Source: a virus. From it: 64,000 nucleotides of DNA. This document shows positions 28,210 to 54,815 of the stretch, piece after piece. The translations under genes were made by a program, and so were the position numbers. Under the pieces are notes generated by a model. That model searched no databases. It worked only from the letters and a program-made list of their open reading frames with translations, and was not told the origin of the DNA. Location: positions 30,441-94,440 of IMG/VR virus record IMGVR_UViG_3300009184_000001; one strand, written 5' to 3'. Numbering within the stretch: position 1 is the first letter of the stretch; every line of letters starts with the position of its first letter.

Positions 28210-29544
28210 ATGTACGCAGCTATGATGAAGTGCCAAACTTCTACAGGAGATGTACGCACAGTCGCAGTAGTTCCTACTACTGATGATGTACGTATCTTCT
28301 CACGATTAGGAGAGGGGCGTGGTCGTGCTGGTGCTTGGCTAGAAGGAGATGTACTCATTGAACAAAATGAGTTACTTATTGGAAGCCCAGTATCACTCAA
28401 GACTACTCCGTCAGAAGACAGAGTAATCAACTCTACTATCACACCGTCAATGTTCTTGGTGAAGTTAGGCAAGAAATTGCCTGAAAGCAGCACACCTAGT
28501 TCAACGTCAGCACTAGAAGAGTTTCAATCTCTACTAGAGCAGGCATTGAATGACCCAAGTTCATTGTCTGTATATGAGCAAGCAATTGTTCATACACAAG
28601 CCACACCACAGCCAGTGGTGCAACAGCAGGTAGCAAGCCCGTTGCCTGTTCAACCCGAGATGTCTAAGGAGACACCTATGGAATACTCACAACCCCTACC
28701 AGCATCAAGCAACAGCCACAGTGTATTGCTTGTGCCAGAAATCAAGCCACACTTCACTAGGACATTCGATGAACTAGACGAAGTAACTATCCTTGATTCA
28801 GCACGAGCAAGAAAAAAGACTGTGCTTATCACAGGTCCCGCTGGTACAGGCAAGACTAGTTGTGCTTACAACTATGCCGCAGTCAATCATCTACCATTCG
28901 TAGTTATTGAAGGCACACGACAGATTGACGAGACCAAGGTTCATGGTCGCTTCATTCCTACTGGTGTTGGTAACAGCACTGCTTGGAAGTACAGTCAGTT
29001 CGTTACTGCTATCCAGCAACCGTCAGTAATCCTTATCAACGAGTTGAGTCGTATGCCTGCCAAAGCAGCCGACTTGTTCCTTCGTGTACTCAATGAGCGA
29101 GAACTAATCATTGACCAACTCAATGAGGTTATCAAGGTGCACCCTGAGTGTCTGTTCATTGTAGACCAGAACACAGGTACTGGCTATGCTGTTACAGCAC
29201 AAGACAAGGCATTGCTTGACAGAATGCAACCTAAGATGGAGTTTGATTACGACATCAAGCTTGAGTCTAAGTTCATCAAGTCCGAGTCATTGCTGTTGTT
29301 TGCACAGTCTATTCGTGAAGCAGCGACTATGACTGACCAGTTCACAACACCTATGTCGCCTCGTATCCTGCTTGACTTCGTAGACAATGCTAAGCACCTC
29401 AACTTAGCATTCGCTGTGCGTTCATTGCTCAACAACTTCCCTAAGGATGATGGTGAGCGTGAAGCAGTCAAGATGACTCTAGACTCCAACATTGACGCTA
29501 TTGCGTCAGAGTTGGGTGTAGAACTAGGCAGTTACTCAGCCTAG
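28210..29544 (+). CDS. MoxR/CobS-type AAA+ ATPase
   Basis: The 444-residue protein has an N-terminal domain of unknown type (1-120), a Gln/Pro-rich linker, then an AAA+ module: Walker A GPAGTGKT (209-216), Walker B-like SVILINELSRM, sensor region FIVDQNTGTGY and arginine-finger area QDKALLDRMQPKMEFDY. The ELSRMPAKAADLFLRVLNER stretch is typical of MoxR/CbbQ/CobS ATPases, which work with VWA-domain partners as chelatases or chaperones. The next gene encodes such a partner, separated by 107 bases with a regulatory element. Confidence 0.85.
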   Translation: MYAAMMKCQTSTGDVRTVAVVPTTDDVRIFSRLGEGRGRAGAWLEGDVLIEQNELLIGSPVSLKTTPSEDRVINSTITPSMFLVKLGKKLPESSTPSSTSALEEFQSLLEQALNDPSSLSVYEQAIVHTQATPQPVVQQQVASPLPVQPEMSKETPMEYSQPLPASSNSHSVLLVPEIKPHFTRTFDELDEVTILDSARARKKTVLITGPAGTGKTSCAYNYAAVNHLPFVVIEGTRQIDETKVHGRFIPTGVGNSTAWKYSQFVTAIQQPSVILINELSRMPAKAADLFLRVLNERELIIDQLNEVIKVHPECLFIVDQNTGTGYAVTAQDKALLDRMQPKMEFDYDIKLESKFIKSESLLLFAQSIREAATMTDQFTTPMSPRILLDFVDNAKHLNLAFAVRSLLNNFPKDDGEREAVKMTLDSNIDAIASELGVELGSYSA

Positions 29545-37699: not shown

Positions 37700-39742
37700 T
37701 TATTCCTTATTGTTTTCTGATATTAGTTTTACTTCACATGCGTCAGTGGTGCAATAAGCCTCACCAACAGCATCTGCTGCCATACCAGCATACACCCCAG
37801 TAAAGTCAATTGCAAATAATTGCATTGCATACTCGGCGTATTCCTCCTCTGATATTTGAGTGTATGGCATCTGTGGGTACACATGGTTACCCATAGGGAG
37901 GAAGCTTACAGTTTTCAGTTGGCCGTCATACATATGCAAGACAGTGCCAACATCATTCTTTTCTTTTTCTGCATCGAACGTGATAGTCACAGAGACAGAG
38001 TTGTCTGACCACCAACGTTGAGCAGTAGCAGCTAGGTTCACCTTTTCATATATAGACACTTCCTTCTCACTACGCTTAGCGTCAGTCTTGATAGGGAAGA
38101 ATACTACAGATGTAGTGTCTGGTGATTCGCTAGCTGGTTCTACACGATAGTTAGCCATCTTAAACAAAGGCAACATAGGGTCATTGTTTCCAAAACGTAT
38201 AGCACGTAGGAAGAACTTACCACCACTAGGCCAGTGAACGCCTGGAGACTCTCCAGCCAAGATAGACACAGTACCAGAAGGCTTAACTGTAGTCATCTTG
38301 ATTGACTCACGAATACCTAGCCACTCTGAGTAAGAGGTGTCGTAGTCACGTACAGTCTTGTAGCCTTCATCCATCCACTCACGTAGAGCCTGCATACCTT
38401 TATTGTCAGCAAAGTTAGCCACACCAGAAACAGAGGTACCAATACGGCGGTTCCTCTGCATGATAGCATTAGTTTCTTCCCAGTGTGTTGGCAGTAGTGT
38501 CACAGTCTTAGCGTACAAGTACGCAAACTTCAATGTGCGCTTGAAATCCTCAAGGGATTCGTGGCGGTTCAAATATGTTTCCACCAGTGTACACATCTCA
38601 AAGCTTTCAAGGCTCTGCTCTGCACAAGGGTTGTAGCCAACCACACGCCTGTCTTTATTATTAGGCGCGTCAACTAGGCGTCCATATTTACGAGAGACGT
38701 CCATCCATATAACTCCAGGCTCACCGTTGCGTACAATACCATCAACGATAGGGCTGAAGTCTGTCCCAACACAAACATCTACTGAGTTGTTACTCATCCA
38801 TGCCCATCCAGGATTCTCAGGGTCATATGAATTACGGCTCGGGAACTTGTCGGCATTCTTTAGGTTTAGGAAATCCTCATCATCAATACGGCCAATCAAC
38901 AACTCAGCTGAACGGCGTACGTTACCTGAAACTACGCAAACGCCAATCATATTACCAATATCGGCAATATCAATACGTGTTAACTTTTCGCCCTTGCGAC
39001 CATAAAACATCTTTTTAATGTTTTCATGCAACTTAATCAATGGCTCTGGACCGGATGCTGTGCCACCAAATGTCTTGATAACTGTTCCATATGGCCTAAT
39101 ATCATCATAATTGAATTCATATAATGGCTGGTCTGGCTTCAAATACGAATTAATCAACGCTGTTGTTGATTCTGCCCAGCCTTCGCGGGTATCCGGAATC
39201 ACATACTCCTGAACAATTACTGGCTCGTATATATCAAACCCTTTATCTGCACCTTTATCATCAAACCCTACGCCCACTCCCAACATGCTTGCTTCCATCA
39301 GGAATGCGAACGGCTTGCCTGGATTGTTTTTGGTCATTTCATTGGTGCTGACAAACGCGCAATTCTGCAATGCTGCTGAATTCTTTTGCTCATTTACAAT
39401 ATCAGTACCCATTACCCACAACCCACGCCCTGGCGGTGTCCACTTTAAATTAAATAAACGGTCATACGCTTCTTTGGCTGACGCCGCAGCTTTTGCGTCG
39501 CTCCATGGCAAACGGTTCTGCTTTGCGTGGTCTTTCTGTAATGAATACATACCATTAATAACACGCTCACATACTTCTGCCCATGTTTCTTTGGTACCAT
39601 CTTCCTTTTTACGGGAATATGTGCGTAGGAATGTAACTTCTCCTACCGAGTTTCCGGCAACGTCTGCATAACCAAATGGTGCTTTCTTGTTCTTGTATCC
39701 TGCAACGAACTCTTCTGCTAATTTAAATGAAAAACTTGTCAT
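37700..39742 (-). CDS. nrdJ: Class II (B12-dependent) ribonucleotide reductase
   Basis: The 680-residue enzyme reduces ribonucleotides to deoxynucleotides with adenosylcobalamin. It is of the monomeric Lactobacillus type. Visible features are QNCAFVST (first redox Cys), GVGVGFDDKG, NVRRSAELLIG, the active-site loop NPCAEQSLESFEMC with finger-loop Cys residues, MTTVKPSGTVSILAG and a C-terminal EAYCTTDACE redox pair. It needs B12 from the host. It has its own promoter upstream and terminator downstream, so it forms an independent unit with the 57-residue gene. Confidence 0.92.
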   Translation of the reverse strand: MTSFSFKLAEEFVAGYKNKKAPFGYADVAGNSVGEVTFLRTYSRKKEDGTKETWAEVCERVINGMYSLQKDHAKQNRLPWSDAKAAASAKEAYDRLFNLKWTPPGRGLWVMGTDIVNEQKNSAALQNCAFVSTNEMTKNNPGKPFAFLMEASMLGVGVGFDDKGADKGFDIYEPVIVQEYVIPDTREGWAESTTALINSYLKPDQPLYEFNYDDIRPYGTVIKTFGGTASGPEPLIKLHENIKKMFYGRKGEKLTRIDIADIGNMIGVCVVSGNVRRSAELLIGRIDDEDFLNLKNADKFPSRNSYDPENPGWAWMSNNSVDVCVGTDFSPIVDGIVRNGEPGVIWMDVSRKYGRLVDAPNNKDRRVVGYNPCAEQSLESFEMCTLVETYLNRHESLEDFKRTLKFAYLYAKTVTLLPTHWEETNAIMQRNRRIGTSVSGVANFADNKGMQALREWMDEGYKTVRDYDTSYSEWLGIRESIKMTTVKPSGTVSILAGESPGVHWPSGGKFFLRAIRFGNNDPMLPLFKMANYRVEPASESPDTTSVVFFPIKTDAKRSEKEVSIYEKVNLAATAQRWWSDNSVSVTITFDAEKEKNDVGTVLHMYDGQLKTVSFLPMGNHVYPQMPYTQISEEEYAEYAMQLFAIDFTGVYAGMAADAVGEAYCTTDACEVKLISENNKE

Positions 39743-39873: not shown

Positions 39874-41343
39874 CTACTCGAGGGCATCCCGTATAATGTG
39901 TGTGGTTTGGTCTTCAGATAATGGCTTATCTAGGTTGCGTAATACGGATGCGCGGTCACCAAAAATACGTGATAATGCGCCTCCCTCTGTCTGACGACTT
40001 GCGGTAATCTGGATGAACTCTTTATTAGTTTCCAGCTCTTTCATACTACTTACTAATTTGAATAAACGGTCTATCTCCTGGGATACATTTGGGTCTGCGT
40101 ATCCACCGTTCATTTCCTCTGCGAACCGCATGAATGCTACTCTTTGCCCCTGCATTTCAACGATTGCGGTTAATAATGACTTCAATTGTTCTTTGGTTTT
40201 TACCTCTACTGGCAGGTTGAACGCACATGTGTTTGCTGGCTTAAATGCTGGGCAATTGGCGGCTACGAAACAGGTATCACACTGACGTAAACTGCTGTTA
40301 TTCGACTGTACAACTGGTACTTCTCTTAATACTTCATGGCCGTCTATATTGTCTACAATGGACTTCATTTGGTACCCAAAAACAGGCATTGGAACTACCT
40401 CATTTGGGTCTCTTTGCACTACTTCTGTGCGTTCAAGTTTCCGCTCTTCACCATCACTGTTATTAGATGACCCCACCCCTAATTCCATCAAACCACTGTA
40501 TAGGGTATCATCACTGTTATCAGATACTATACGCTTTTTATTGTTATCCATTGTCTTCTCTAACTGTAAATACGACCAGATTGCAACTTTTGTTGCTTCT
40601 AGTGTGTCATCTTCTACGAACTTTTTGAAATCTAACCCAGCTTTTTCTACAACTGATTTGTACCTTAAACGGGCCTGTGCCTTCATATTTTTAGGATAAC
40701 GTATTAGTTTAGTATTATCCCATATAATGGTCTCACCGCGTCTCATAGGGCTTATCCAGGCCAATGTAGAGGCATGGTCAAACGGTATTTGACGTAGGTT
40801 ATCTGGTTTTGCTGTTGCTAACGCCATAAACTGTGTTGAACTGGTTAGTTTTATGGAACGAACAATCGCTGCCAGGGATGTTAACGACTCTACTGCATCT
40901 CCGGGAATTGCAATATTAGCGTACTCTGTACCCCAACGCTTTAATAAATTTTGTCCATAAATCTCGTGCCAAACAACCCACATCTTTGGGTCATTTTCAA
41001 ATGCATCTCGCTGTTCTAGAATCCAATTAAATCCCATAACCTGTGAATCAAATTCAATCCAACCTTCAATACGGTCGTAATTCATTGCTATAAACTCTTC
41101 GTAATCTGCGGCGTATTCTTCTAACTCCATCTTGGACAGGTTAGCTTTGTCTGCTTGAACTGCTCCTGAATCTACCCATACTTTCATATTAGGTAGGAAA
41201 TGTTCACCAATCAAATATGGCTTAGTCTTTGGCAGCCCACGCTTTTTCAACCCCCAGTAATTTAGGATGACGTGTTCTGCCCCGCTGCGTTCCAACAATG
41301 TACGATTACTTGGAATCTCTACCCCGCCAAATATTATCTTCAT
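39874..41343 (-). CDS. DpdA/TGT-like TIM-barrel protein with Cys-rich C-terminal part
   Basis: The N-terminal 240 residues look like phage DpdA-type tRNA-guanine-transglycosylase homologs: MKVWVDSGAVQAD, RIEGWIEFDSQVMGFNW, WVVWHEIYGQNLLKRWGTEY, ANIAIPGDAVESL and ATAKPDNLRQIPFDHASTLA. DpdA puts 7-deazaguanines into DNA. After about residue 300 comes an acidic linker, then CDTCFVAANCPAFKPANTC, a metal-binding-like cluster, and a helical end. No preQ0 synthesis genes are in the window, so the base would have to come from the host or from genes elsewhere. Assignment is by motif pattern only. Confidence 0.5.
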   Translation of the reverse strand: MKIIFGGVEIPSNRTLLERSGAEHVILNYWGLKKRGLPKTKPYLIGEHFLPNMKVWVDSGAVQADKANLSKMELEEYAADYEEFIAMNYDRIEGWIEFDSQVMGFNWILEQRDAFENDPKMWVVWHEIYGQNLLKRWGTEYANIAIPGDAVESLTSLAAIVRSIKLTSSTQFMALATAKPDNLRQIPFDHASTLAWISPMRRGETIIWDNTKLIRYPKNMKAQARLRYKSVVEKAGLDFKKFVEDDTLEATKVAIWSYLQLEKTMDNNKKRIVSDNSDDTLYSGLMELGVGSSNNSDGEERKLERTEVVQRDPNEVVPMPVFGYQMKSIVDNIDGHEVLREVPVVQSNNSSLRQCDTCFVAANCPAFKPANTCAFNLPVEVKTKEQLKSLLTAIVEMQGQRVAFMRFAEEMNGGYADPNVSQEIDRLFKLVSSMKELETNKEFIQITASRQTEGGALSRIFGDRASVLRNLDKPLSEDQTTHIIRDALE

Positions 41344-41825
41344 TCGAAATTTAAACCTTCTGTGCGGTTTAACCTGGCGTCTTTTGTGCGCAATTCATTT
41401 TGTTTGTTTATTGACTCTTCAATATCATTCCATGCCCTAACTGCTTTAGGTGCATCTGGGCGAAACTCTACACGGGTATAACTAGGCACGGCAAACATAA
41501 CACTAGGAATTCCCATGTTAAATGCGTACGCCCATGCCTTTGGGTTGTTTGTTATAAATAAATCTATTGCACCTTTTGCCCTGACAACGTTAATCTGACG
41601 CTCAGCTAAATCTTCGCCCTCTAGGTGAACGGATGAGTCAACGATGTTATCAAAATCAACAATCTTATTGGTGTCTAACCAATGTTGAATTTCATTCTTG
41701 GATGCTGATGCCATTAATGTTACTTGGTTCCAACTGCTTAGGGTTCCAACCATGATAACCCCAGTTGATATTGGTACGTCGTTAGTACCTCTTAATACTC
41801 CGTCTAGTTCTACTAATACATGCAT
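41340..41825 (-). CDS. HAD-like protein with altered nucleophile motif
   Basis: ATG 41825 follows AAGGACGATTA and overlaps the upstream stop; the longer frame is rejected. The 161-residue protein starts MHVLVELDGVLRGTN, where HAD phosphatases have DxDGT; here the first Asp is Glu. It continues with IMVGTLSSWNQVTLMASASK and a late AKGAIDLFITNNPKAWAYAF and GIPSVMFAVP, consistent with a Rossmann-like HAD fold. It is coupled to the DpdA-like gene. Activity is doubtful because of the changed nucleophile. Confidence 0.5.
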   Translation of the reverse strand: MHVLVELDGVLRGTNDVPISTGVIMVGTLSSWNQVTLMASASKNEIQHWLDTNKIVDFDNIVDSSVHLEGEDLAERQINVVRAKGAIDLFITNNPKAWAYAFNMGIPSVMFAVPSYTRVEFRPDAPKAVRAWNDIEESINKQNELRTKDARLNRTEGLNFE

Positions 41826-41935
41826 TAATCGTCCTTGTAGGTCTCTCCATAACAATCACATTTACAGTGGTCTTCGGTGCAAATTCCTTGGTATAGCTCA
41901 TGTGCGCATAAACGGCACGTGTCTGCTAATGACAT
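41825..41935 (-). CDS. Cys-rich zinc peptide, 36 aa
   Basis: MSLADTCRLCAHELYQGICT, EDHCKCDCYGE has six cysteines and two histidines in 36 residues. TAATG overlaps on both sides and AGGA upstream support translation. It may be a small zinc-binding subunit of the neighbouring enzymes. Confidence 0.55.
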   Translation of the reverse strand: MSLADTCRLCAHELYQGICTEDHCKCDCYGETYKDD

Positions 41936-42816
41936 TATTTGTTCCTGTATACTGCTGCTCTGCGAATCAGCGTTCTTGCGTCTGGTAGTTCAACTCCATA
42001 AGGGTTATTACTTTGTAGGGTAGTCATCATATGCTCCCTAACTTTTCTTAACGATTGAATTGCACCACTACGCTTACCTGCTTGCCAGCGGTAGTTATGG
42101 AAATCTCCGTAACCTTCTCCGCTTCCGGAAAATGCCATTGACCTGTTAGTATGAATCTCATTATATAGGGCATTGCCCTGTGCAGCTGCCATTGTTACGT
42201 TGTTTTCTGCATTACGTCTGATGGCATCATTTCTAGAATATTTAATATCCTGCATTGATGTTGTAAACTTGGCTTCAATACTGGCAGCGGTGCTTAAATC
42301 TTTACTGGCAATACTATCCCATTCTGGGTTGGATGGTGGTTCCTGGTTTGGGTTTGGTGTAACTACCCATTCGTCATACTTTAAATCATACGCTGCATAT
42401 GGTTTAATATCGCGGATATCTTCTGTGGCTAATGCGTAAAAGGTTAGCTCGTATCCATTCCAGTTTTCAGTGCTGCTCTGCAACTCATCGTGAAACTGCT
42501 CGTTTAACTGGTCAGAAATCTCTTTGTTTGATAAACCTGCATAATCAATATTGGCTTTACGAAACTGTACAAAATTAATTCCAATTAAACAATCCAGGTC
42601 TTTAGGTTCTCTGGCTGCGTTCCATTGGTAGGAAACTCCGGAACCAGCTAGATATGGGTGTGTCCACAACTGTGCTTGCTGGTATTTACGACCAATAAAA
42701 TCGTTTAATATGCTTATAATGCCTGAACGCACCCACGACTTTATTGCCCGTCCACTAAAAAGTACTGGGTCTAATTCGGTCGCAGGTGCGCTGAAGTATG
42801 ATGTAGGATTGTTCAT
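41935..42816 (-). CDS. Nucleotidyltransferase-like protein, 293 aa
   Basis: LAGSGVSYQWNAAREPKDLD followed by CLIGI reads like a polymerase-beta-type nucleotidyltransferase signature (Gly-Ser, then Asp-x-Asp). The N-terminal IKSWVRSGIISILNDF and a C-terminal helical, Asn/Arg-rich part lack other known motifs. It forms an overlapping group with the zinc peptide, HAD-like and DpdA-like genes, so it may act on a nucleotide or nucleic acid in the same pathway. This is inference. Confidence 0.5.
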   Translation of the reverse strand: MNNPTSYFSAPATELDPVLFSGRAIKSWVRSGIISILNDFIGRKYQQAQLWTHPYLAGSGVSYQWNAAREPKDLDCLIGINFVQFRKANIDYAGLSNKEISDQLNEQFHDELQSSTENWNGYELTFYALATEDIRDIKPYAAYDLKYDEWVVTPNPNQEPPSNPEWDSIASKDLSTAASIEAKFTTSMQDIKYSRNDAIRRNAENNVTMAAAQGNALYNEIHTNRSMAFSGSGEGYGDFHNYRWQAGKRSGAIQSLRKVREHMMTTLQSNNPYGVELPDARTLIRRAAVYRNK

Positions 42817-42825
42817 ATACCTAGT

Positions 42826-43134
42826 TTATGCTGTTACTTCAGGGCTTTCTGGCTTAATCTTACGTTCTGCAAGTTTTTCGCTAATTACCTCAGATACTGT
42901 TGGCTCTGATGGTGGTGTTAGCAACTGTACAATAGTCGCTGCTAGACGTTCTACCAAACGCTGGTCATCTACTTCTTTAATTAGTACATGTGCCCACTGG
43001 TAAACATCAGATACTGACGCATCTACTTGGGTTTCTGGCGCATCTTCTGGTTTCTTTAGGTCAACAGAAAATGTGTCATCTTGGTAAATGTTAACTACGA
43101 ATTGTGACTTGATTTCTTTAGTTGTTTGTTCCAT
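42826..43134 (-). CDS. Hypothetical protein, 102 aa
   Basis: An acidic protein with a beta N-terminus (KSQFVVNIYQDDTFSVDLKK) and a helical middle (DVYQWAHVLIKEVDDQRLVE). Located 9 bases before the nucleotidyltransferase-like gene. Function unknown. Confidence 0.6.
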   Translation of the reverse strand: MEQTTKEIKSQFVVNIYQDDTFSVDLKKPEDAPETQVDASVSDVYQWAHVLIKEVDDQRLVERLAATIVQLLTPPSEPTVSEVISEKLAERKIKPESPEVTA

Positions 43135-43145
43135 TTTATTCCTTC

Positions 43146-43697
43146 TTAATATAGGCCAAGGATTTGGCGTTTACGTTCTAACACTTTACCATGATACGGG
43201 CAGAAATGGCAAGTGTATACTTGGGGCCCTTGCAAATGTTCTGGCTTAGGCATTCCCAATTCTTTGCGTTCCATTGCTGTATCCGGCAATAAACGCTTTT
43301 TAGGTGTCTCATAATCTTCACAATTAGTTGTGACTTTATTATGTGCTATCCAGCAGCTCATAGCCTCATCAGCAAATGTCATTTTTGTTTCATAAAATGC
43401 TTTGTTAGGGTCTAATTCATCTAGGCCCTTTGAACCACCATCTGCTAGTTGTGCTAGGATAGCTTTCTTTTCTTCTGGATTGGCCCATGACTTTACTGGT
43501 ACTTTAAACAGTTTACCTACGTGTGGGTCACCCGATGGAAACTTGTGTTTTTCTATCGAAATCTCTAATAGGTAATCAAAATTAGATGGGCCCTCGTAGT
43601 CTGGTAATTCTTCCCAGGTTTCGCATACCATACAACGTAGCAGACGAATGATTGGTCCATCAATCGGCTTGGACCCAATTACTGGTTTATTTGACAT
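43146..43697 (-). CDS. Zinc-binding hypothetical protein, 183 aa
   Basis: LLRCMVCETWEELPDYEGPS at the start and YTCHFCPYHGKVLERKRQIL at the end each hold a Cys-x2-Cys, and Cys115/Cys125 (SCWIAHNKVTTNCE) lie between. AAGGAG precedes the ATG inside the upstream gene. Similar two-ended Cys proteins occur in actinophages. Function unknown. Confidence 0.6.
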   Translation of the reverse strand: MSNKPVIGSKPIDGPIIRLLRCMVCETWEELPDYEGPSNFDYLLEISIEKHKFPSGDPHVGKLFKVPVKSWANPEEKKAILAQLADGGSKGLDELDPNKAFYETKMTFADEAMSCWIAHNKVTTNCEDYETPKKRLLPDTAMERKELGMPKPEHLQGPQVYTCHFCPYHGKVLERKRQILGLY

Positions 43698-53118: not shown

Positions 53119-53515
53119 TTGGCCACTCTCCATCTAATACTAGCATTGCAATAATAGCATAGTTAGCCATGTCCAAGAATGAGTCACGTAAACTTTCATT
53201 CTCAGGTCTAGCCTTGTTGTCAATCAAATGGTTGATGCGAGCAAACTTATCCCACATACGAACACGCAAACCGTTCAGTGGTCCACCTGGACTATGTGCA
53301 ATATTTTTTGGTCCATAGTCTTTGTGCTTGCTAAGAAGTACGTGCTTTGCATGTTGAAACTTCTGTTGAACAGCCTCTTCAAACTTTGTGTTTAAACCAT
53401 TTTTACGAATTTCTTCTTTCATAAATTCTGGTAACTCTTCAAATTTTCCCATATTATCTTCTTCTTCTAGTTTTTCTGTATGCATGTCTGTGTACAGTTC
53501 CTTCATATATCCCAT
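53111..53515 (-). CDS. DUF1599-type (nucleotide-modification-associated domain 1) protein
   Basis: The 134-residue protein contains KHKDYGPKNIAHSPGGPLNG, LRVRMWDKFARINHLIDN and SLRDSFLDMANYAIIAML, the pattern of the DUF1599/nucleotide modification associated domain 1 family, which is related to all-alpha NTP pyrophosphatases. A role in nucleotide-pool cleaning or DNA modification is assumed for the family but not proven. AGGAGG precedes the ATG. Confidence 0.75.
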   Translation of the reverse strand: MGYMKELYTDMHTEKLEEEDNMGKFEELPEFMKEEIRKNGLNTKFEEAVQQKFQHAKHVLLSKHKDYGPKNIAHSPGGPLNGLRVRMWDKFARINHLIDNKARPENESLRDSFLDMANYAIIAMLVLDGEWPNE

Positions 53516-53961
53516 TATATATTCCTCCTATAATCATTAGAACGACGTGTGATTTCACGGCTAACCAAGGATAGGTCACGCTCGTGATTTGTAAGTAGCA
53601 TTTCAACTAACTTACGATAAGCATACTTCTCTTCATAATCGTTGTCAAGTTGCACAATCTCTGTATTAATAGAGACTTCTGCTTTGATAGCTGTGATACG
53701 CTCACCCTTTGCCTGAGAACCCATACGCCTAATTAGCATAGTGTTTTCAGTAAAGTCTTTCTTCTTAAGGGCTCCACGTTCTTCCAGTTGAGCCATGGTT
53801 AACTGAGAGTTAATATAATCAGTCCAAGCAGTTAGGCGAGTAAAGAGTTCACCTAGCTCCTCTGAATCAAGTGTTGTTATATCTGACGGTAACCTTACCT
53901 GCTCACCTTCCGGCTTGTAGAAGGTAAGGCCCCAGTCTTTAAACTTCTCCATTGCACTCAT
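53515..53961 (-). CDS. Hypothetical helical protein in recombination operon, 148 aa
   Basis: A mostly helical protein (ELGELFTRLTAWTDYINSQL, MLLTNHERDLSLVSREITRR). Similar proteins sit next to Cas4-like nucleases in actinophages as far as I recall, so it may be a partner; no motif proves it. Coupled on both sides. Confidence 0.6.
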   Translation of the reverse strand: MSAMEKFKDWGLTFYKPEGEQVRLPSDITTLDSEELGELFTRLTAWTDYINSQLTMAQLEERGALKKKDFTENTMLIRRMGSQAKGERITAIKAEVSINTEIVQLDNDYEEKYAYRKLVEMLLTNHERDLSLVSREITRRSNDYRRNI

Positions 53962-54815
53962 TAGTCCTCCTTATATGGTGCACACTGCTTGCATGTTCCG
54001 CCAGGAACGTTATTACACTCTGGTGCAATACCAGCCTCTACGGCATCTACAACTAATTTAGCGTTGTCAAACACGTGACGTACAAGCTCGTAATCACGCT
54101 TAACACTAAACTCTTTATAATCTTGGTCAGCTTTGAGTTCATAAATAAATACAATCTCGTTTACATCGTGGCCCATACGTTGCATAAGTTCAAGGTAAAC
54201 CTGACCCTGCATAATGTGAGTAGGGAATGGGCGACGAACGTTCTTCCATGCCTCCATAAAGTTACCATCGGCATCCATAAACAAGTTAGGAGCTTCTGAG
54301 CGAATAGTTCCTGGACCAATAGATTTTATTTCAATTAGGGTATCGTCTCCAATACCTTTAATCCAGCCGTCAGTGTGACCAGCAATACGTAGTTCATCGT
54401 CAATAAGAGTAACTTCACGGTACTCTACAGTGTCACGTCCACAATTATCACAGGTAATTTTTCCAATGCCAAAATAAGAAAACCCACACCCGGTACAACC
54501 AAAGCGACCGTAAAGTACACCCATTTCCTGGAACCAACGTTGCCATTTAGCGTGGATTGTGTGGCCCTCGTCAAAAATAGACTGCAACCGTAGGTTAGGC
54601 TTTTCAGCAATTTTAGTGTGGCCACTTAGTAGGAAGAATCCTGCACGACGACAGTAATCCCTTTTAATAATTTCTGATGGGTGAAGTACAGTCGTACTAC
54701 GGTCACCCACAGGACGTGCCATGAGGTGACGTTCAATATCTCCCATTAAACGTGTTGGTTTCTTTTTTGCATCTAAGAACCTTGCAAGGTCTGATTTACT
54801 TGATGATACCGCCAT
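53961..54815 (-). CDS. Cas4/RecB-like exonuclease with iron-sulfur cysteines and zinc insert
   Basis: The 284-residue protein shows IIKRDYCRRAGFFLL (first Cys), IFDEGHTIHAKWQRWFQEMG, LRIAGHTDGWI...LIEIKSIG (the PD-(D/E)XK core Asp, Glu, Lys), HIMQGQVYLELM, and C-terminal CNNVPGGTCKQCAPY, which with the first Cys gives the four Cys of a Cas4/AddB-type iron-sulfur cluster. A zinc ribbon (CTGCG, CDNCG) is inserted near residue 110. It likely resects DNA ends for RecA-mediated recombination. Confidence 0.85.
   Translation of the reverse strand: MAVSSSKSDLARFLDAKKKPTRLMGDIERHLMARPVGDRSTTVLHPSEIIKRDYCRRAGFFLLSGHTKIAEKPNLRLQSIFDEGHTIHAKWQRWFQEMGVLYGRFGCTGCGFSYFGIGKITCDNCGRDTVEYREVTLIDDELRIAGHTDGWIKGIGDDTLIEIKSIGPGTIRSEAPNLFMDADGNFMEAWKNVRRPFPTHIMQGQVYLELMQRMGHDVNEIVFIYELKADQDYKEFSVKRDYELVRHVFDNAKLVVDAVEAGIAPECNNVPGGTCKQCAPYKED

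Follow-up and report, generated by a model that had tools for sequence, protein, structure and literature searches.

A 64-kb window of a 94,440-base IMG/VR virus record (IMGVR_UViG_3300009184_000001), which is the whole stretch of DNA analysed here, carries a cassette of genes for a nucleotidyltransferase (NTase)-like protein, a HAD-like protein and a DpdA/TGT-like protein, in which the DpdA-like protein has lost the catalytic Asp residue of phage DpdA. It is tentatively proposed, at somewhat less than an even likelihood, that this cassette is a DNA-acting phage unit, which is of DpdA descent but has abandoned the DpdA reaction, and in which a nucleophile-less platform is combined with an active NTase.

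Four genes are located at 39874-42816, as described in the initial annotation. They are on the minus strand and are transcribed in the order of NTase-like protein, 36-residue zinc peptide, HAD-like protein and DpdA-like protein, with a stop/start overlap of 1-4 bases at every junction. The ratios of nonsynonymous to synonymous polymorphism (pN/pS) of these genes, determined against one relative, are 0.19, 0.20, 0.22 and 0.19 respectively. All four are confirmed as genuine genes, which are coupled and evolve under purifying selection. The genes for the three large proteins are on one strand and in identical order in 89 of the 89 loci that contain all three (a few of the fetched loci being two fetches of one contig), and the HAD-like and DpdA-like genes overlap or are 10 bases or less apart in 80 of these 89 loci. 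The IMG/VR scans give 14 DpdA-like and 199 NTase-like matches, and 80 were kept. The three large proteins are also detected by tblastn, with their order kept and with identities of 28-35%, in the Streptomyces phages BRock, LuckySocke, Alone3, GiJojo and pSt2308. Thus lake phages, soil (Streptomyces) phages and actinobacterial chromosomes all carry the cassette. The chromosomal cassettes, which are found in Streptomyces diastatochromogenes, S. rimosus, Nonomuraea and Herbidospora, are likely prophages, because one of them adjoins a long recombinase-like reading frame, as judged by eye. These observations support a fixed three-gene cassette that forms one functional unit. The zinc peptide is encoded by a real gene, but is recovered between the NTase-like and HAD-like genes in only about 20 close relatives and is not found in the Streptomyces or more distant forms of the cassette. 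It is therefore rejected as a core subunit and regarded as a lineage-specific extra. The earlier proposal that the coupling of the four genes reflects one pathway is thus supported for the three core genes, but not for this peptide.

PHROG 887 ('queuine tRNA-ribosyltransferase') matches the DpdA-like protein over its whole length (1.8e-58). Alignment of the family profile by hhalign with validated or typical phage DpdAs (CAjan, Dp-1, Rosebush type, CRB2, Cracklewink and Vibrio AL-2) gives a probability of 97.6 and an E value of 2.9e-12 over 231 columns, and tblastn from a cassette relative reaches validated DpdAs at 8e-5 to 4e-4. Pfam TGT (PF01702) matches nothing in the phage and none of 49 family members, and searches of the barrel against Pfam, NCBIfam and PDB sequences give nothing useful, in contrast to the searches by PHROGs and profile-profile alignment. 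When alignments built from the window and IMG/VR sequences only are supplied to AlphaFold2, the barrel is modelled confidently at residues 1-265 (predicted local distance difference test score, pLDDT, of about 90), and little confidence is obtained beyond residue 270. A Foldseek search of a viral fold library with this barrel returns proteins of Microbacterium, Arthrobacter, Dinoroseobacter and Mycobacterium phages that are labelled queuine tRNA-ribosyltransferase (1.5e-8 to 3.4e-5), and a search of the PDB returns generic TIM barrels only. A fold unrelated to TGT, which had been named beforehand as the outcome that would speak against the assignment, is not observed. As judged from the profile alignment with validated phage DpdAs and from the predicted fold, the barrel is a true DpdA/TGT relative.

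In phage DpdAs, the alignment and what is established for these enzymes place the nucleophile in the motif P-[WF]-[YF]-S-x-D-S-x-x-W. The corresponding column of the cassette family (n=91) contains Ser in 81, Ala in 8, Thr in 2 and Asp in none of the sequences. All 18 of the other phage DpdAs in the comparison have Asp there, including four (Salmonella S107, SfI, Vibrio 1.100.O and Vibrio D169) whose phages show no preQ0 gene in the part of the sequence that was read. In TGT, Asp280 acts as the nucleophile and Asp102 as the second acid (PMC6165067). The acid of the DSG motif (D58) is Asp or Glu in 91/91 cassette sequences, the base-recognition residue D99 is present in 91/91, His173 is present in 86/91 (Met in the window copy), and the FD pair is also retained. 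Apart from M and some gaps, E97, D99, R112, K120, W196, S198-P199, T205, R215-K218, R225 and E249 are invariant, and Asp181 is near-invariant. Those among them that are new to this family (E97, R112, K120, S198-P199, T205, R215, K218, R225 and E249) speak against decay of the DpdA-like protein. In a 26-row tree, the eight cassette sequences group as a single clade (support 100/100). As read from the aligned sequences, the catalytic Asp is lost across the whole cassette clade. The binding site probably persists and the known covalent exchange probably does not, because the family lacks the nucleophile but retains the acid of DSG, the FD pair, His173 (apart from the window copy) and the new invariant residues. 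A second, canonical DpdA that might serve as a catalytic partner in cassette phages is rejected, since each cassette record contains at most one DpdA-like match, located at the cassette gene, and the window record contains none above the threshold. In the DpdA of the fecal phage MT835482 (L103:5521-7719), a long intein-type insertion, ending with ...VVVHN, is located exactly at the S-x-D-S motif. The position of this insertion in a Bacteroides-type DpdA fits the motif as the active site.

The DpdA-like protein may still be a base-exchanging or base-modifying enzyme, which would use a relocated acid (Glu97, Asp181 or Asp/Glu58) to install a base other than the known 7-deazaguanines, with the NTase-like and HAD-like proteins making or finishing this base. 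Very strong conservation of the barrel and the presence of E97 and D181 as acids characteristic of the cassette family are consistent with this possibility. It is nevertheless considered unlikely: the Asp of the TGT covalent intermediate is gone in every sequence, no counterpart of the Gly-Gly stretch with which canonical DpdAs bind the base is seen at the corresponding position of the alignment, and the HAD nucleophile is not conserved.

The initial annotation noted that no queuosine or preQ0 synthesis genes are visible and suggested reliance on the host as one possibility. The former agrees with the finding that QueC is detected in 0/34 cassette-bearing phage records, with QueC of a Vibrio phage found as a positive control. 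The latter receives little support. When seven bacterial genomes with NTase-like loci were checked, QueC was absent from S. diastatochromogenes, Nonomuraea and Herbidospora, all of which carry the cassette, and present in S. rimosus and a metagenome-assembled genome. Full-length QueC is present in 9/61 Streptomyces species, in which the other matches are weak (20-28 bits), and TGT is present in 0/61 Streptomyces genomes. Ordinary 7-deazaguanine insertion is unlikely because, in addition to the loss of the nucleophile, QueC is absent from the 34 phage records, three cassette actinobacteria and most Streptomyces. Insertion of host-made preQ0 into phage DNA by a canonical DpdA reaction agrees with the clear DpdA homology and with the trace of 2'-deoxy-7-amido-7-deazaguanosine (dADG) reported for Salmonella phage 7-11, which has DpdA only (PMC6884629), but is very improbable in view of these absences and of the lost nucleophile. 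Phages with DpdA but without preQ0 genes constitute the largest DpdA group in the study of Hutinet et al. 2019 (PMC6884629), in which the modification status of these phages is described as difficult to predict and functional divergence is left open. No modification was found in one mycobacteriophage, Orion (PMC6884629).

The Cys-rich extension of the DpdA-like protein, C355-x2-C-x5-C-x8-C373, is found as annotated, with all four Cys residues invariant. In Bacteroides phage BS162P1 and fecal phage MT835482, the domain that contains this cluster (Cys4 domain) has a gene of its own immediately downstream of DpdA, while QueC precedes DpdA and a QueE-like radical SAM gene is nearby (QueC of BS162P1 matches PF06508 at 4.6e-14, and that of MT835482 is read from the sequence). 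The Cys4 domain is aligned by hhalign with BS162P1_00088 at E 2.9e-18, and tblastn also relates it to the gene adjoining DpdA. It is further aligned with a part of the terminase small subunit (TerS) of Tsukamurella phage TIN2 at E 1.5e-5, and Foldseek lists a Gordonia phage TerS at 1.1e-3. The Cys4 domain is thus common to a DpdA/QueC locus and TerS, and therefore points to DNA. Base modification of either phage DNA or tRNA had been suggested. Of these two targets, phage DNA is the one supported, because a gene for the Cys4 domain lies beside DpdA and QueC, the domain resembles TerS, and TGT is absent from the Streptomyces genomes, but a DpdA-like exchange is not, the Asp being lost in every member. 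These same three points argue against a tRNA-directed unit, in which the TGT relative, the NTase and an end-processing HAD protein would modify or end-repair tRNA. This possibility accords with the TGT ancestry, with weak matches of two HAD-family members to a phage polynucleotide kinase PHROG (1.2e-4), and with the occurrence of NTases and HAD phosphatases in phage RNA repair (PMC7824862). It is rather improbable, because the HAD nucleophile is not conserved and no ligase or kinase domain is recognised in the cassette.

The GS...DxD...E set of the NTase-like protein is invariant in 94 homologues, in agreement with the annotated Gly-Ser...Asp-x-Asp motif. In the model of this protein (pLDDT 87), the strand order is, by reading of the model, as expected for a Pol-beta core, with the third acid on the next strand. 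Alignment by hhalign with PF22014/DUF6932, which we take to be an NTase family, gives a probability of 69.5 and an E value of 4.3e-5, with GS...DxD aligned, as compared with 0.1 for an unrelated control. The nucleophile position of the HAD-like protein, described as changed in the initial annotation, is occupied by Glu in the window and is variable in the relatives (S 34, E 23, D 12, V 7, A 6 and N 5 of 92). The HAD-like protein is labelled 'phosphatase' or 'hydrolase' in two Streptomyces phages, and is not matched by Pfam HAD; its assignment to HAD_SAK_2 is not supported, with a weak hhalign result. It is probably not a phosphatase in most members, because the nucleophilic Asp is present in only 12/92. 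Thus, as far as the sequences indicate, the NTase-like protein retains an invariant predicted catalytic set, and the HAD-like protein is without a conserved nucleophile.

Variable cargo genes are located between the NTase-like and HAD-like genes in some loci. They encode an Arr-type ADP-ribosyltransferase, GNAT, endonuclease-like and endonuclease VII proteins (L051:6882-7214, L098:6876-7202, L088:5969-6325 by eye, L043:6888-7397 and L087:7435-7914). In one case the cargo is located between the HAD-like and DpdA-like genes instead. An N-terminal L[NS]xxQF[GK] motif occurs six times among 2440 reading frames, and all six occurrences (L065:6882, L081:2970, L084:6879, L088:5969, L090:6876 and L098:6876) are directly after the NTase-like gene, five of them in the slot before the HAD-like gene, which is not seen at L090. 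This motif could represent a shared targeting tag or common descent. In the Streptomyces sp. A0642 chromosome, the NTase domain is fused behind a GNAT domain (L111:4792-6795), and the next gene (L111:6792-9923) contains Arr, ART-PolyVal and 2'-5' RNA ligase domains, an arrangement that resembles polyvalent phage proteins. The NTase domain is likewise fused behind a GNAT domain in Streptomyces MH60.

These fusions, together with the Arr, GNAT and endonuclease-like genes in the slot of the lake phages, are consistent with an effector of the polyvalent type, in which the NTase, made late or carried in the virion, would modify the host, and the DpdA-like and HAD-like proteins would be DNA or cargo adaptors. 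The domains catalogued for polyvalent proteins include Pol-beta NTases, ADP-ribosyltransferases (ARTs) and GNATs (PMC5512222). However, no delivery domain is recognised in the cassette, the window cassette is located between replication genes and a ribonucleotide reductase (RNR) gene, about 26 kb from the terminase large subunit gene, and an effector role does not account for the constant association with a DpdA relative. The effector possibility is therefore given a low probability.

If the cassette is instead a DNA-acting unit that has abandoned the DpdA reaction, it may work as follows. By homology, the barrel is related to DpdA, and its tail corresponds to a domain that is separate beside canonical DpdA in Bacteroides-type phages and resembles a part of TerS. 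By sequence, the nucleophilic Asp is gone clade-wide; the binding site would be kept and covalent exchange lost. The Cys4 domain would dock the DpdA-like protein onto phage DNA, where the protein may recognise or flip a guanine-like base without exchanging it. The NTase-like protein would be the catalytic member, and the target of its nucleotidyl transfer would be either the DNA site so presented or a protein bound to the DNA. With a nucleophile that is not conserved, the HAD-like protein would serve as a structural partner. Phage DNA would probably be marked or protected in this way during replication or packaging. In a more specific version, which is doubtful, the nucleophile-less platform and a pseudo-HAD scaffold would guide the NTase to attach a nucleotidyl group, or some other non-7-deaza decoration, to guanines of phage DNA. 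To our knowledge, nucleotidyl decoration of phage DNA guanines has not been described. If the NTase acts on DNA, the cassette would represent a new route of DNA modification.

Several points weigh against the DNA-acting unit. The barrel might be catalytic through the invariant Glu97 or the near-invariant Asp181. A Foldseek search of the PDB with the NTase-like model returns no NTase, the matches being dominated by the helical tail, and the NTase fold is assigned from the motif, the strand order and a modest profile match. The Cys4 domain is predicted by AlphaFold2 with low confidence. The bacterial QueC counts are those of Streptomyces and of genomes with NTase-like loci, and many of the phage records are fragments.

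Several known systems are close to the cassette. With phage DpdA of the CAjan, 9g and Rosebush type (Hutinet et al. 2019, PMC6884629), the cassette protein shares the barrel fold and, in the 231-column alignment, DSGA, D99, W196, G203 and, for most members, His173, but it has Ser, Ala or Thr for the catalytic Asp, a fused Cys4 domain, invariant NTase-like and HAD-like partners, and no QueC. QTRT2, the non-catalytic subunit of eukaryotic TGT (PMC6165067), similarly has a TGT fold with changed catalytic aspartates and is a partner rather than an exchanger, but it pairs with catalytic QTRT1, whereas no catalytic TGT is found in cassette phages or Streptomyces genomes. In the BS162P1/MT835482 modification locus, the gene after DpdA likewise encodes this Cys4 domain, but the DpdA has retained the Asp, genes for QueC and a QueE-like radical SAM protein lie nearby, and no match to the NTase-like or HAD-like protein is found in the stretch read. 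The NTases of polyvalent proteins (Iyer et al. 2017, PMC5512222) resemble the cassette in that the NTase domain is near GNAT and ART in two Streptomyces chromosomal loci, but the NTase of the window is stand-alone and locked to the HAD-like and DpdA-like genes. The TIN2 TerS shares the C-x2-C...C-P...C cluster and the following helix, but its remainder does not match the barrel. A search of the literature for DpdA together with nucleotidyltransferase gives nothing on this cassette, as judged by title and abstract. The cassette proteins form a well-defined DpdA-related clade without the catalytic Asp and locked to an NTase, so that the labels 'queuine tRNA-ribosyltransferase' and 'dpdA-like' on them are no evidence of 7-deazaguanine DNA. 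The cultured Streptomyces phages allow direct testing.

The features of the cassette and its neighbours are listed in Table 1.

Table 1. Positions of the cassette genes, selected sites and neighbouring genes in the window.
Feature	Position	Strand	Remarks
NTase-like protein, 293 aa	41935..42816	-	G58-S59...D73-x-D75...E123 set
36-residue Cys-rich (zinc) peptide	41825..41935	-	CxxC...CxxxxCxCxC; lineage-specific
HAD-like protein, 161 aa from ATG	41340..41825	-	Nucleophile position is Glu6
DpdA/TGT-like protein, 489 aa	39874..41343	-	Barrel 1-265, low-confidence linker, C-terminal Cys4 domain
D58 codon (DSGA motif)	41170..41172	-	D 47, E 44 among 91 homologues
S192 codon (place of DpdA/TGT catalytic Asp)	40768..40770	-	S 81, A 8, T 2 of 91
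C-terminal Cys4 domain, residues 353-462 of DpdA-like protein	39958..40287	-	hhalign, tblastn
102-aa conserved neighbour	42826..43134	-	In 82 loci
183-aa Cys-containing conserved neighbour	43146..43697	-	Matched in 102 loci
B12-dependent RNR	37700..39742	-	Usual downstream neighbour in lake phages, 67 loci

The HAD-like gene has an earlier TTG start in the list of open reading frames, and its length is counted from the ATG. The B12-dependent RNR is outside the cassette, and the replication genes on the other side encode DNA polymerase (57.5 kb), helicase (61.2 kb) and a UvsX-like protein (55.5 kb). The 183-aa neighbour, which gives no family match in the library scans, is as widespread as the cassette, its loci including those of Streptomyces phages and actinobacterial chromosomes. 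Elsewhere in the window, a gene at 28210-29544 on the plus strand encodes an AAA-type ATPase with 'porphyrin biosynthesis' as the best PHROG match (2e-30), and the gene beside it encodes a 645-aa protein with a weak match to a family without an assigned function. An adjacent gene pair at 53515-54815 resembles, by eye, a pair near the DpdA locus of BS162P1 (L004:1664-2977), hinting at a distant kinship of the window phage and this Bacteroides phage.

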